In this document: positions 43,622 through 48,592 of the stretch, piece after piece
Layout: the number at the start of each line of letters is the position of its first letter
Position numbering within the stretch: the first letter of the stretch is position 1
NCBI RefSeq assembly: GCF_014237455.1
Contig: NZ_JABZFL010000016.1
Coordinates: 1 to 64,000 of the forward strand
Direction of reading: 5' to 3'
Length of the DNA stretch: 64,000 nucleotides
DNA from: Desulfobacula sp.
GTDB taxonomy: Bacteria > Desulfobacterota > Desulfobacteria > Desulfobacterales > Desulfobacteraceae
Made by a program: the position numbers and the translations under genes
The notes under the pieces: model-generated
Told to the model about the DNA's origin: nothing
Database searches by the model: none
The model's input: the letters and a program-made list of their open reading frames with translations, nothing else

Positions 43622-43872
43622 GATGAACCTCCAGGATAAATTTTTAACCCGGTCTTTAATTTGAAATAATCTTTTTGATTTATAAAAGCAAGAGGTTATG
43701 ACTGTCATTTTCAATTTTTATCATATAAATCACCCAACTTGATTACTGTGAATAATAACGGTCATAAAAAACGATATTTGAAAAGATGGGTTGCGAAACA
43801 TCCTGACGTGGTATAAGAAAAATTATCCCATCGGGGTTGAATGGCTTGAACTTAACAAAGAATGGAGAAAAA

Positions 43873-44277
43873 ATGGGTGGATTTAAAGTAACATTTCCCA
43901 ACAATAAAAAGATAGATGTCGAATTTAACAATTTTAAAATTAAAACCGACCAGTCCAAAGAGAATGGAGGGGATGAGACTGCACCCGAGCCATTTGATGT
44001 TTTCATCTCTTCCCTGGGAGCCTGCGCCGGAATCTATGCAAAATCATTTTGTGATGTAAGGAAACTTCCTACAAGCAATATGCATATTTTTGTTGACGTC
44101 TTGTTCAACGAAGGAAAAAAGCTCATGGATCAGGTGAATATCACTCTCCATGTCAATCAACACTTCCCTGAAAAATATATCAAACCGATTATAAAAGCCA
44201 TGAATGGGTGTGCGGTTAAAAATCAATTTCATCCGGATATAAAAACCAGTACGGCTGTGGTTTTTCTGGATCAATAA
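43873..44277 (+). CDS. OsmC-family protein
   Basis: 134 residues from the ATG at 43873 (ribosome site TGGAGA). It has the OsmC/YhfA pattern PEPFDVFISSLGACAGIYAK with the first redox cysteine, and NGCAVKNQFHPDIKT with the second. OsmC proteins reduce organic hydroperoxides or handle sulfur species. It converges on the selenoprotein gene, overlapping its stop by 7 nt. Confidence 0.85.
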   Translation: MGGFKVTFPNNKKIDVEFNNFKIKTDQSKENGGDETAPEPFDVFISSLGACAGIYAKSFCDVRKLPTSNMHIFVDVLFNEGKKLMDQVNITLHVNQHFPEKYIKPIIKAMNGCAVKNQFHPDIKTSTAVVFLDQ

Positions 44278-45221
44278 TAATCCTGGATGGTTCCGTTCCG
44301 GTCTGCTCTTTCAAGTAATTGTATTGCTCTGTTTAAAATAGTTATCTGTAATTTTTCGTTAAACGGATTTCCCAAAGGCCGTCCCAAAAGTTGTGGCGTG
44401 AGTAATACTCTTGGCAAAGACATCATTCTCATCCGGGTTTCAAAAGATTTGACCGCAATAACAATCGTGGCGATTTTAGCTTCTTCCAATACCCTTGCGA
44501 CATGTCCCACGGACATGTGACAAACAGGTCAGACCGGAACCAGTACCGCGGCGTCAACTCCCAGGTTTACAAATTTATCCACCCAATCCGGCAGTGTTTT
44601 TTTCAGCAGTCTTTTCTGAGAACACGCACCAACAAATGAATATGCATTAACCGTTAAATCAGCGAATACCCCCTGATCTTTTAAATTTACCATCCTCTGA
44701 TATGGGAAAGAAACATTAGGATCTTTCAGTGCTGCTCTGATATCATATCCACCGTGGCGAACCACCAAATCTTCGGACTTTGAATCAAATGGAATCTCAG
44801 AAAGCTGAGGCGCCTCCTTTAAAGAATCAAAAATTCGACGTTCTGCTTCTTCCTGAGTCATATTCTCAACCCCCAGTGGTTTTGAATCACGCCCTTTTAA
44901 AAAATGACCGCTTGATGTCAGAAGAGTTAGTTTTATGGAAGACAATGGTTTTTGTAAAGGATGGAACGGTCCGTCATCGTATTCAAAATTTTTTTGCTCT
45001 TTATATCCCTCTACCTGGCCCTGCAGCAGTCTTTGCCTCACTCGTTCCAGGTCATCGTCATCAAACGAGTCCATCAGGTCTTTGAACAGGCCTTGAATAA
45101 ATATTGAGGCATTTTCCGGAGTCAGCTCGGATATAAATTTAAAAGACAGATCCGAGCGTTTACCGTAAAAAAAAGACTTGATGAACGCTTCAAAGGATTC
45201 CGGTCTGTTTTCTTTTTGCAT
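44271..45221 (-). CDS. Selenoprotein of the glycine/betaine/sarcosine/D-proline reductase B family
   Basis: 316 residues if the in-frame TGA at 44529-44531 is read as selenocysteine (residue 231). Sequence before the TGA (GVDAAVLVPV) and after it (PVCHMSVGHVARVLEEA) is continuous in one frame. It matches the family motif in which U/C-P-V-C is the redox site (Sec231-Cys234). A hairpin follows within 10 nt of the TGA. The C-terminal FETRMRMMSLPRVLLTPQLL is also family-typical. No GrdA or GrdC genes are nearby, so this is likely a stand-alone reductase-like protein. Annotating it as two genes would be wrong. Confidence 0.85.
44492..44528 (-). promoter_or_regulatory. Bacterial SECIS-like hairpin
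   Basis: On the minus strand the perfect 8-bp stem ACATGTCC/GGACATGT (44511-44518 with 44500-44507) closes a GTG loop and starts 10 nt after the TGA. A lower stem of CC...TTTG with CAAG...GG extends it to 44492-44528. The distance and the G in a tight apical loop suit SelB binding. Confidence 0.7.
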
Positions 45222-45281: not shown

Positions 45282-45980
45282 TTAAATCGTTTTAATACTT
45301 TTTTCCTTATTAATTTTCTCAATACTGATGATGGCATGCTCTTTGACATTTGAAATATGTTGTTTTAAAATTCTGACCGCACCATCAAGATCAGAATCAG
45401 TAACATATTCATATAATTTAATGTGTTCCGAATCAACGGTATCCATAGGTGTTACAAAAAGGATATTGCCCCGGTATTTAAGGTATAAAAGATCAAAAAG
45501 CGATTTTAAGGTATTGATTTGTATCGTGCATCCTGAAAGCTTTGCAAGGATAAGGTGAAATTCCATATCCTTTAAAAGTCGTTCTTTTAAATAAATGTCT
45601 CGAACAGCGTCAAGATGGCAGTCCAGGGCTTTTTTCAGTATTTTCAGCCCTTTTTTATCAATTTGGGATATGGTTTTTGGTAAAAGTGAGGTTTCGATTA
45701 ATTCCCTGAATTCATATATCTCTGTAATTTCTTTTAGACTGATGTTTTCAGTATAATACCCGCGATTGGGTTCATGCCGGACAAGACCTTGATACTCCAG
45801 CCGTTTCAATGCCTGGATAACCGGTGTCGTACTCATTTCAAGGCGCTTTGCAAGATCTCCATAGGATATTTTCTGCCCCGGTATAATTTCATTCAAAAAA
45901 AACATCCGGCGAATACCCATATAGGCTTCCTGAGTAAAATCATCTTTGCTCTTTTTCTTCTTTTTTATTTTTTTCTCCAT
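45282..45980 (-). CDS. GntR-family (FCD) transcriptional regulator
   Basis: 232 residues from the ATG at 45980. The lysine-rich start is followed by a winged helix (about 17-80) with SYGDLAKRLEMSTTPVIQAL and RLEYQGLVRHEPNRGYY. An all-helical FCD ligand domain follows, with EIYEFRELIETSLLPKTI and metal-type histidines (DMEFHLIL, ISNVKEHAI). It diverges from the 2-oxoacid oxidoreductase operon, and a 40-bp palindrome sits between them, so it most likely controls that operon. Confidence 0.88.
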   Translation of the reverse strand: MEKKIKKKKKSKDDFTQEAYMGIRRMFFLNEIIPGQKISYGDLAKRLEMSTTPVIQALKRLEYQGLVRHEPNRGYYTENISLKEITEIYEFRELIETSLLPKTISQIDKKGLKILKKALDCHLDAVRDIYLKERLLKDMEFHLILAKLSGCTIQINTLKSLFDLLYLKYRGNILFVTPMDTVDSEHIKLYEYVTDSDLDGAVRILKQHISNVKEHAIISIEKINKEKSIKTI

Positions 45981-46084
45981 AAACAAAATAAATATACCAA
46001 GCCTTTTATAAAATCAATTATAAAAACAGATAATTTCAAAATCTAATAATCGCTCTATCTACTTGAATATCGGTCATTTTATTC

Positions 46085-46113
46085 TTGACATACAAACCGA
46101 AAAGAGTTATATA
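46085..46113 (+). promoter_or_regulatory. Sigma-70 promoter of the 2-oxoacid oxidoreductase operon
   Basis: -35 TTGACA (46085-46090), 17-nt spacer, -10 TATATA (46108-46113). The predicted start near 46120 lies inside the palindrome at 46113-46152. Confidence 0.65.
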
Positions 46114-46152
46114 ATTATAAATCTGATCAAATATTTGATCAGATTTATAATT
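46113..46152. promoter_or_regulatory. 40-bp perfect palindrome, probable GntR operator
   Basis: All 20 base pairs of the two half-sites match, centred between 46132 and 46133, with core CTGATCAAAT and its complement. It overlaps the -10 box and start region, so a bound repressor would block RNA polymerase. Confidence 0.8.
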
Positions 46153-46194: not shown

Positions 46195-47310
46195 ATGGCT
46201 TTGTCATTTATGGAAGGGAATGAGGCACTTGCCAGGGGGGCAATTGCTGCGGGCTGTGATTTTTTTGCAGGCTATCCCATCACACCGGCAACAACTATTT
46301 TTAACAATATGCTAAATATGCTGCCACCCAAAGGCGGTATTTGTATTCAGGGAGAAGATGAAATTGCATCCATGGGATATTGCATCGGGGCATCCATGGC
46401 AGGCAAAAAAGCACTAACCGCAACATCCGGCCCCGGCATCAGTCTTTACAGCGAACAGCTTTCCTTTGCCATAGGCAGTGAAATCCCTCTGGTGATTGCA
46501 GATGTGCAACGCCTGGGGCCTTCAACCGGTTCAGCAACCAGAGGCGCTGACAGTGATATCCAATTTTTAAGATGGGGCAGCACAAGCGGTGTTCCGGTGA
46601 TCGTGCTTGCCCCTAAAGATGCTCTTGACTGCTATGTCCTTGCTGTCCATGCCTTTAACTATGCTGAAGAATTCAGGTGCCCCGTTTTTATTGCTTCCAA
46701 TAAAGAAATCGGGATGACCAGGGAAAGCTTTGATCTTGATTCTGTCACCCTTCCCCCGATTGTTGAAAGGAAAATGTTTTCAGGAGATTCGTATCTTCCG
46801 TTTGAAGCAGAGCCAAATGCAGCCCCGCCATTTCTTCCCATTGGCGGAGAAACCCTTGTCAGACAGACATCATCAACCCATGGACCGGACGGCTATATCA
46901 CCATTGATCCTGACGTAATTGCGCAAAACCAGGCAAGGCTGAGAGAAAAAATCCATAGTGCCCGGAAAAGAATTACACTTTTTGAAAAAGATATCAAAGA
47001 GAATAGTGATACACTGATCATCAGTTATGGTGTCACCGCCCGTGCAGTTGAAGATGCCGGCAAAACACTTGAAAGTAAAGGGAAACCGGTCTCCACCTTA
47101 ACCCTTAAAACCCTGTGGCCGGTACCGGAAGAACTTTTGATAGAAACAGCAAAACCTTTTAAGCGCATTGTTGTCATCGAAATGAACCTGGGTCAATACG
47201 TCAATGAAATAAAGCGGGTGCTTTGTGATAAAAAAATAATGTTTTATGGACAGATGAACGGTGTGTTGATCACGCCTGCAAAGATTATGGAGGTCATTGA
47301 AAATGAATAG
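46195..47310 (+). CDS. 2-oxoacid:ferredoxin oxidoreductase, alpha subunit
   Basis: 371 residues. The N-terminal pyrimidine-binding domain has EGNEALARGAIAAGCDFFAG and YPITPATTIFNNM (about 27-39), then EDEIASMGYCIGASMAGKKA and TATSGPGISLYSEQ. The C-terminal transketolase-like domain contains YGVTARAVEDAG. It belongs to the KorA/VorB-like subunits that oxidise 2-oxoacids to acyl-CoA with ferredoxin as acceptor. No separate 4Fe-4S subunit gene is seen. It has a strong ribosome site (AAGGAGAAA). Confidence 0.88.
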   Translation: MALSFMEGNEALARGAIAAGCDFFAGYPITPATTIFNNMLNMLPPKGGICIQGEDEIASMGYCIGASMAGKKALTATSGPGISLYSEQLSFAIGSEIPLVIADVQRLGPSTGSATRGADSDIQFLRWGSTSGVPVIVLAPKDALDCYVLAVHAFNYAEEFRCPVFIASNKEIGMTRESFDLDSVTLPPIVERKMFSGDSYLPFEAEPNAAPPFLPIGGETLVRQTSSTHGPDGYITIDPDVIAQNQARLREKIHSARKRITLFEKDIKENSDTLIISYGVTARAVEDAGKTLESKGKPVSTLTLKTLWPVPEELLIETAKPFKRIVVIEMNLGQYVNEIKRVLCDKKIMFYGQMNGVLITPAKIMEVIENE

Positions 47311-48592
47311 TTATTTGAATAAAACCAGGCCCTCTGTCTATTGCCCCGGATGCACCCATGAAAAAATCACCAAAGGCCTTGATAAAGCCCTCGTCAAATT
47401 GAACCTTCCGGCGGACAAAACCGTCATTGTTACTGATATTGGATGCTCCGGCCTTTTTGACACCTTCTTCAACGTACACGCTCTCCATGGAATTCACGGC
47501 CGGGCTCTGACCTATGCATCGGGTCTCAAACTTGCTAATCCCGAACTGAACGTGATTGTTACAATGGGAGACGGGGGCTTGGGTATCGGTGGCGCCCATG
47601 TATTGGCTTCCTGCAGAAAGAATCTTGATCTTACACTGATTATTCTCAATAATTTCAACTTTGGCATGACCGGCGGACAATACTCTGCCACTACACCAAC
47701 AGATGCAATAGTGGGATCGGAATTTCTCAATCATGCTGAAATTCCCCTTGATATCTGCGCCATTGCCCAAAGTGCCGGTGCTACTTATATTGATCGATGC
47801 TCAGGCCATGATGAGCGCCTGCCCGGAAAAATTGCCAGCGCCATTGAGCATAAAGGGTTTTCAATCATTGAAACCCTTGGTATGTGCACTGGTCGTTATA
47901 CCAAAAAAAACCCGCTGACCCCAAAAGCCCTTGATCAAATGATAACCGATCTTCCTGCCAAAAACGGTATCATAGAAAAAAACAAAAGGCCTGAATACGG
48001 TGACCGTTACAGGGCACTTGCCAAAGAGAGAAAGACCTTCCCCGAAGCGGTTACCATAGAAAAACAAACCGATCTTAAAAATTACCAACAGCAAGAGGTG
48101 GTTATCTTAGGCAGTGCGGGAATGAGAATCGTAACAGCTGGTGACATTGTCTGTTATGCAGGCCTTTGCGCGGGCATGAATGTGTCAATGAAAAATGACT
48201 ATAATATTACCGTTCTCAGGGGACAGTCTGTTAGTGAAATCTTGATTTCACCCGAAAAAATAGGCTATCCCGGCATTGAATCTCCTTCCGTTGTTCTGGC
48301 ATTGAGTGATGAAGGCGTGCAGCGAAGAAAAAAAATATTTGCAACCCTTAAACCGGACACGTTTGTCTTAAAAGAAAGAAGCGTTACCATTCCGGAAACC
48401 AACGCGGATGTTGTTGAAATCGACTTCCGGAAATTTAAAATCAAAAAACAGGATTGGGCTTTGGCTTCCCTTGGTGTAATGGCAAAAAAAGAAAAAGCTA
48501 TTAATAAAGCAATGCTAACGTATGCGTTAAAGTCCCGTTTCAATGAAAAAGTCTATCTGATTGCAATGGAGACCATTGAAAAAATGATTTAG
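47303..48592 (+). CDS. 2-oxoacid:ferredoxin oxidoreductase, fused beta and gamma subunits
   Basis: 429 residues from the ATG at 47303, overlapping the alpha gene by 8 nt. Residues 1-240 are the TPP-binding beta subunit: CPGCTHEKI, TDIGCSGLFD, TMGDGGLGIGG, NNFNFGMTGGQYS and the segment around ETLGMCTGRYTKKN. The C-terminal 180 residues match a gamma subunit: VVILGSAGMRIVTAGDIVCY, TVLRGQSVSEILISPEKIGY. Beta-gamma fusions are less common than separate genes. Substrate cannot be named; the induction by a GntR regulator hints at a catabolic amino acid or aromatic intermediate. Confidence 0.85.
   Translation: MNSYLNKTRPSVYCPGCTHEKITKGLDKALVKLNLPADKTVIVTDIGCSGLFDTFFNVHALHGIHGRALTYASGLKLANPELNVIVTMGDGGLGIGGAHVLASCRKNLDLTLIILNNFNFGMTGGQYSATTPTDAIVGSEFLNHAEIPLDICAIAQSAGATYIDRCSGHDERLPGKIASAIEHKGFSIIETLGMCTGRYTKKNPLTPKALDQMITDLPAKNGIIEKNKRPEYGDRYRALAKERKTFPEAVTIEKQTDLKNYQQQEVVILGSAGMRIVTAGDIVCYAGLCAGMNVSMKNDYNITVLRGQSVSEILISPEKIGYPGIESPSVVLALSDEGVQRRKKIFATLKPDTFVLKERSVTIPETNADVVEIDFRKFKIKKQDWALASLGVMAKKEKAINKAMLTYALKSRFNEKVYLIAMETIEKMI

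Follow-up and report, generated by a model that had tools for sequence, protein, structure and literature searches.

The closest described relatives of the protein analysed here are PrdB of D-proline reductase (TIGR04483) and the selenoprotein B subunits of the glycine-type reductases, GrdB, GrdF and GrdH (PF07355; TIGR01917, TIGR01918, NF040794 and NF040795), with which it shares a Sec-x-x-Cys motif. For D-proline reductase, the route proposed in PMC10298544 involves a covalent adduct between the substrate and a pyruvoyl group, followed by attack of the selenolate. Selenoproteins labelled as "proline reductase" are known from surveys: they are tabulated for Anaeromyxobacter and Geobacter uraniireducens in PMC1794560, and 42 sequences are filed under this name in the selenoproteome survey PMC1088965. 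These proteins were filed as PrdB and come partly from Deltaproteobacteria and seawater.

The stretch of Desulfobacula sp. DNA that was analysed, 64,000 nucleotides long and referred to below as the window, contains a gene of this kind (Table 1). The present analysis adds three points: the proteins form a clade of their own, all the sequences examined have selenocysteine (Sec) at the site, and none of the 25 carrier genomes searched yielded a pyruvoyl subunit. No prior report of this clade was found in the literature searched, which consisted of open-licence papers.

Table 1. Positions of the selenoprotein gene, its parts and the adjoining features in the window
Feature	Coordinates	Strand	Basis
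Selenoprotein gene, 316 aa, predicted Sec231	44274..45221	-	ORF list, translation, profile matches, homologues
In-frame TGA, predicted to be read as selenocysteine (U-P-V-C)	44529..44531	-	TGA in 23/23 + 37/37
Predicted SECIS hairpin, 8-bp stem, GTG loop	44500..44518	-	Folding, covariation, codon entropy
Pre-Sec part: N-terminal helical region (~residues 1-90) and beginning of PrdB/GRDB-like domain	44532..45221	-	
Post-Sec part: remainder of PrdB-like domain	44274..44528	-	
GntR/FCD-family regulator, 60 bp upstream of selenoprotein gene	45282..45986	-	At 10/39 window-type loci
40-bp perfect palindrome, putative operator of GntR/FCD regulator	46113..46152	.	
Divergent 2-oxoacid:acceptor oxidoreductase genes	46195..48592	+	ORF list, domain matches, neighbour comparison

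Reading frame and in-frame TGA

The minus strand carries a frame of 316 codons, running from 45221 to 44274, whose sole interruption is the TGA at 44531-44529. It begins with an ATG (45221-45219), terminates at a TGA (44273-44271) and is preceded by a ribosome-binding-like AGGGAG (45234-45229), read directly from the sequence. A preliminary description of this DNA had placed the gene at 44271-45221, which is correct, but had left out the strand. As it had foreseen, plain annotation splits the gene, and the ORF list gives two products of 230 aa (44529-45221) and 81 aa (44271-44516). When they are joined, the sequence around the site reads ...VDAAVLVPV-U-PVCHMSVGHVAR..., with the U-P-V-C redox motif that had been pointed out at U231-P-V-C234. 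The presence of family sequence on both sides of the TGA is borne out by the PrdB model TIGR04483, to which the joined protein scores 94.4 bits, the part before the TGA 50.3 bits and the 81-residue part after it 22.3 bits.

The valine codon preceding the TGA (44532-44534, minus strand) is GTC in 26 of the 31 aligned valine codons, giving a near-palindromic CCGGTC-TGA-CCGG context that is seen in many relatives.

Predicted SECIS element

A bacterial SECIS, as characterised in PMC1088965, is a hairpin just downstream of the UGA with a small apical loop containing G. The hairpin of the window fits this feature, being close downstream and having a small G-containing loop. It follows the TGA after 10 nt and has eight perfect pairs and a GTG loop, exactly as first described, with the arms at bases 14-21 and 25-32 counted from the T of the TGA (44518-44511 and 44507-44500). 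The fold of 48 bases from the TGA has a z of -2.14, and 9 of 200 shuffles were as good, which is modest when taken alone; the case for the hairpin is built on comparison.

Over 43 distinct sequences, 98.5% of the 343 cells of the eight-pair stem hold a standard pair, and 26 cells have changes on both sides. For pairing, cells changed on both sides and the covariation score, none of 500 shuffles, which ignore relatedness, was as high; two of the five covariation measures lay within the shuffle range, with 261 of 500 shuffles as high in the number of pairs changed on both sides and 485 of 500 in further pair types. Pair 16/30 occurs as A-U (21 sequences), G-C (17) and G-U (5), and pair 15/31 as C-G (30), U-A (9) and U-G (3), being unpaired in one. 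When partners are shifted along the sequence, no more than 53.9% of cells pair, although the covariation score at a slide of +2 is 0.166 against 0.243 for the true partners. The innermost stem pair is lost in three sequences from Acidimicrobiia- or Actinobacteria-labelled bins (L108, L109 and L111), and one pair each is lost in two others. A lower helix suggested by folding is weak (73.3% paired).

Synonymous choice at the serine, valine and glycine codons of the hairpin is nearly fixed. Codon entropy is 0.44 at Gly239 and 0.72 at Val238, whereas 26 other conserved four-fold columns average 1.77 and none of them is lower than 0.86; at Ser237 it is 0.52, and 16 other six-fold columns average 2.07. 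The two-fold codons of His235 (0.88) and His240 (0.98) are not fixed, other two-fold codons averaging 0.90; this is expected where such codons covary with a partner base. No Rfam family exceeded its gathering score at the selenoprotein gene, and three weak matches nearby are on their face unrelated.

Predicted selenocysteine decoding

The genome that contains the window (3.48 Mb, 113 contigs, 97.8% complete) encodes the machinery whose presence the preliminary description had proposed to check: tRNA-Sec (76.5 bits, cut-off 47; anticodon tca according to ARAGORN), SelA (596.9 bits, cut-off 267.9), SelB (346.1 bits, cut-off 242.25) and SelD (370.6 bits, cut-off 125). The 37 other carriers have SelA above the cut-off in 30 cases, below it in two and no match in five; incomplete bins are the explanation proposed for these seven gaps.

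The conservation of the TGA was followed in two sets. A search of 389 genomes of the order gave 119 with some relative at E 0.001 or better, 25 of which, the window's own genome counted, are carriers of the window type (at least 51% identity over the aligned part). All 23 sequences that span the Sec site, the window included, have TGA there; the pieces found in the remaining two carriers (G331 and G251) miss the site. In addition, a collection of species genomes was scanned with two short peptide patterns, giving 37 loci that partly overlap the 25 carriers, and TGA is at the Sec site in all 37. One of the patterns, CPVCH[MV]SV, had Cys at the Sec position and would catch Cys forms where this stretch is intact; no Cys form of the window clade was seen in either the scan or the order-level set. 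Homologues terminating at this codon, which would have spoken against a selenoprotein, were not encountered in either set. Cys homologues that can be aligned to the TGA do exist (L118, L121 and L119), all of them distant relatives.

Comparison with five of six relatives (L086 left out) gave dN/dS of 0.08-0.12 before the TGA and 0.07-0.19 after it, at pS of 0.42-0.68, where synonymous sites are well towards saturation; the values after the TGA indicate that this part is under protein-level constraint. An in-frame stop in a single genome would look the same if the TGA were a nonsense mutation or a sequencing error in a gene with Cys or another sense codon, i.e. if this were a pseudogene, and the match is indeed broken or fragmented in three carriers (G375, G008 and G251). 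This reading is rejected as having a negligible probability, since all 37 scan loci, in records naming several phyla, have the TGA at this position, the dN/dS after it is in the purifying range and the hairpin is conserved.

With the sel genes present, no termination at the codon and Cys in distant homologues, the selenoprotein reading of the preliminary description is upheld. The gene almost certainly encodes a genuine selenoprotein, in which UGA would be decoded as Sec231 by SelA, SelB, SelD and tRNA-Sec with the downstream hairpin as the SECIS; sequence data could hardly give this decoding better support.

The SelD match of the same genome (L019, G000:C37:10289-11212) has an in-frame TGA of its own and is probably likewise a selenoprotein. 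In distant relatives of the same order, Sec is replaced by Ser (SGLC; L122 and L123) or Thr (TPVC; L120), and these are perhaps forms without this redox activity.

Relationship to PrdB and GrdB

All 20 members of one alignment (A1, made without the broken L026 and the fragments L041-L044) match the curated GrdB, GrdF, GrdH and PrdB models at E 0.001 or better. The best NCBIfam match of the window protein is PrdB (TIGR04483), although the 94.4 bits given above do not reach the cut-off of 300, which the PrdB of Peptoclostridium, used as a yardstick, does (310.2 bits). The Pfam model GRDB (PF07355) is exceeded, with 35.2 bits against a gathering score of 22, but is covered only at its end, at profile positions 265-345 of 347. 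Cut-offs are missed by far for GrdB (TIGR01917; 28.8 against 602.2 bits) and for the curated GrdF and GrdH models (NF040794 and NF040795), and the wider B family (TIGR01918; 26.8 against 65.45 bits) is not reached either. Two further clade members, L112 and L108, are also below every curated cut-off. The UGSC family (NF041046, cut-off 125 bits) is matched at E<=0.001 by two of the 20 members, the best E being 0.00041, and is absent among the listed profile matches of the window protein itself.

A second alignment (A2, 33 rows) comprised the window and 32 of the 37 scan loci, without L087, L089, L110, L111 and L114. In a tree of the C-terminal part with 60 rows, built by a quick method without bootstrap, the 33 window-type rows form one side of a branch with an SH-aLRT of 98. 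This clade is apart from PrdB and from related proteins of 290 and 430 residues, and two of its members, L092 and L106, are long branches inside it. In none of the 27 distant sequences does the best domain start ahead of profile position 70, so that, within the sequences compared, the N-terminal region of ~70-80 residues is peculiar to the clade. Sequence comparison and the structural model show the protein to be a free-standing branch of the PrdB/GRDB fold, extended at the N-terminus by a helical region of ~80-90 residues. The label "B-type reductase" of the preliminary description is loose, as the protein scores nearer to PrdB than to GrdB, is below the cut-offs of both and stands in a clade of its own.

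The proteins of ~290 aa of the same order that resemble PrdB (such as L045-L049, L129-L136 and L138) have a related domain, one in-frame TGA in most of the rows listed and, in some, a visible similar stem. They differ from the window protein in being 27-38% identical to it (rows compared) and in forming several separate branches; a few of the proteins carry Cys, Ser or Thr where the others have Sec.

Partner subunits were searched for in whole genomes. The lack of GrdA noted in the preliminary description extends to the whole window genome and to all 25 carriers (PF04723, 0/25), while the same search was positive in G151, one of 14 other genomes of the order. The pyruvoyl-forming subunit (PF09338) was found in none of the 25 carriers, with positive controls in an Acetoanaerobium record and in G151. 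PrdA (TIGR04480) was also found in 0/25, by a model that was positive in no control.

True PrdB and true GrdB are both rejected on these data. D-proline reductase would agree with the top NCBIfam match and with the related C-terminal region, but is highly improbable, given the missed cut-off, the extra N-terminal region, the separate clade, the lack of matches to PF09338 (and to PrdA, whose model was positive in no control), and the motif, which is U-G-T-C in both PrdB yardsticks (Peptoclostridium and Acetoanaerobium) and U-P-V-C in the window. A selenoprotein B of a glycine-type reductase (GrdB, GrdF or GrdH), with its partners elsewhere in the genome, would agree with the GRDB match, but is even less probable, being contradicted by the scores against the GrdB and wider B family models and by the finding of neither GrdA nor a pyruvoyl subunit in any carrier. 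No pyruvoyl subunit was found that could form a Schiff base, and the enzyme is therefore not expected to reduce glycine, betaine, sarcosine or D-proline; in the absence of a pyruvoyl group, the D-proline reductase mechanism proposed in PMC10298544 would be unavailable to it.

Predicted structure

The AlphaFold2 model of a single chain, with Cys in place of Sec, is confident, with a pLDDT of 91.6 and a pTM of 0.91. UPVC is predicted to lie between a strand (residues 224-228) and a helix (232-247). Behind Sec, the model has more strands and helices. Cys200 of the protein is invariant. A sequence search of solved structures gave one row, a ribosomal protein at E 0.21, and no related structure, and Foldseek with the model against the PDB gave nothing at E 0.001 or better. 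VIA-align with the model gave only assorted matches to Rossmann-like and other widespread arrangements (best Z 8.1).

Distribution

The nearest relative of the window protein (83% identical) is from Desulfobacula sp. The record titles of carriers name Desulfobacula, Desulfosarcina, Olavius symbionts, SAR324, Anaerolineaceae, Thermoflexales, Chloroflexi, Acidimicrobiia, Actinobacteria and Deferrisomatales, as well as single bins of Clostridiaceae, Syntrophomonadaceae and Bacteroidales; most of these records are metagenome bins, in which the labels of single contigs may be wrong. Two carriers, Desulfosarcina widdelii PP31 (L093) and D. alkanivorans PL12 (L115), are recorded as strains with complete chromosomes. 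Among the Acidimicrobiia- or Actinobacteria-labelled bins (L108, L109 and L111), SelA is above the cut-off in two of three genomes. Plasmid records contain distant relatives only, in 24 records that each cover less than 80% of the query. On viral contigs, five stretches fit a scan pattern, and none of them is a relative.

Gene neighbourhood and regulation

Of the 52 loci left after removal of duplicates, neighbours were counted at 39, the window included, which are of the window type with a placed target; left out were loci with no placed target (L063, L070, L072, L073, L078, L093, L101, L104 and L114) and those of distant type (L074-L077). The neighbour theme differs from clade to clade. In the window, the selenoprotein gene is followed in the upstream direction by a GntR/FCD regulator on the same strand and by divergent genes of a 2-oxoacid:acceptor oxidoreductase, the alpha subunit at 46195-47310 and the beta subunit, with a C-terminal POR (gamma-type) domain, at 47297-48592. 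This order is found at 10 of the 39 loci, in Desulfobacula-like genomes, and is missing in the close relatives L051 (83% identity) and L084 (~74%).

The gap between the regulator and the oxidoreductase genes holds a perfect palindrome with arms of at least 12 bp at seven of the 10 loci, the window included, and with arms of 8 bp at one; the two loci without it have direct repeats of similar words, as judged by eye. In the genome of the window, the 20-base core of the palindrome recurs nowhere within two mismatches and once with three, and the region has no match in plasmid records. A TTGACA (46085-46090) and a TATAAT (46110-46115) with a 19-bp spacer were also read by eye; this pair was not listed by the promoter scan, which was limited to spacers of 16-18. 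The scan for promoters and terminators gave fewer promoter-like sites than shuffles and no useful terminator. Local autoregulation is predicted, which may take in the selenoprotein gene. The chances are about even that the GntR/FCD regulator ties the expression of the selenoprotein to the 2-oxoacid:acceptor oxidoreductase in Desulfobacula-like genomes.

This arrangement might point to a catabolic enzyme, a reductive lyase acting on an alpha-substituted carboxylic acid, which the GntR/FCD regulator would induce and which would be coupled to the 2-oxoacid oxidoreductase. The gene order at 10 loci, the long palindrome arms at seven of them and the lack of a near-identical second site agree with such a function, as do a cluster of MFS transporters at six loci and a cluster of aldehyde ferredoxin oxidoreductases at two (Pfam was run on one member of each). 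The link is limited to one group, however, and is absent at 29 of the 39 loci. A catabolic lyase is possible but less likely than not.

Other neighbours are related to NADPH and disulfides. Within six genes of the target at the 39 loci there are clusters of glucose-6-phosphate dehydrogenase (six loci), pyridine-nucleotide disulfide oxidoreductase (five), a DsbH-type thioredoxin-domain protein (four) and transhydrogenase beta (two), together at 14 of the 39 loci, as raw counts. Pfam was run on 3/6, 4/5, 1/4 and 1/2 of these, respectively, and the rest were assigned by BLAST clustering. These neighbours would suit an antioxidant selenoenzyme, similar to a peroxidase or a disulfide reductase, rather than a catabolic reductase. 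The same direction is indicated by a convergent OsmC-like gene at four of the 39 loci, by another candidate selenoprotein at Chloroflexi loci, which weakly resembles deiodinase and AhpC, and by a peroxidase activity of GrdB, as reported in the title of a paper cited in PMC2702500. Against it, loci of the window's own kind constantly adjoin the GntR/FCD regulator and the 2-oxoacid oxidoreductase, which points to catabolism. An antioxidant role is likewise less likely than not, and the catabolic and antioxidant versions are about equally likely.

The OsmC-like gene of the window (43837-44277, plus strand) overlaps the end of the convergent selenoprotein gene by 7 bases, and its product resembles a model of OsmC-related (seleno)proteins, below the cut-off (44 against 95 bits). 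Directly upstream of a Chloroflexi homologue there is a selenoprotein candidate split by TGA (L112:7160-7966, plus strand; U-P-Y-C), which scores just under the cut-offs of the deiodinase and AhpC Pfam models. By clustering only, its downstream half is also present at L098, L103 and L113.

Possible reaction mechanism

Taken as a whole, the locus is very probably best explained by a stand-alone reductase of the PrdB/GRDB fold with decoded Sec. Given the fold, the UxxC motif and the fact that partners were not found, a thiol-fed selenolate reductase is the most economical reading, and we infer from the sequences a selenol/thiol reductase that would be independent of pyruvoyl. It is evenly balanced whether the UxxC at the start of the helix works as a selenolate/thiol pair. 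In such a mechanism, the selenolate of Sec231 would directly attack an electrophilic substrate, Cys234 would resolve the adduct to form a selenenylsulfide, which would then be re-reduced by a dithiol system drawing on NADPH or ferredoxin.

Significance of the family

Plain ORF calling halves this gene, and its active site is lost. The retention of Sec in every clade sequence examined suggests that Cys is no ready substitute for it. The protein raises the question of what the selenolate of PrdB and GrdB may perform alone, without the pyruvoyl subunit that the proposed chemistry requires. It is conceivable, at somewhat less than an even chance, that genomes labelled as Desulfobacterota, SAR324, Chloroflexi and Acidimicrobiia share a strictly Sec-dependent, pyruvoyl-independent family in which the PrdB/GrdB fold works alone and is fed by thiols. 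A "PrdB" label in metagenome surveys need not imply proline reduction and, if such a family exists, part of the "proline reductase" of marine surveys could belong to it, or to similar families without partners, and have another chemistry.
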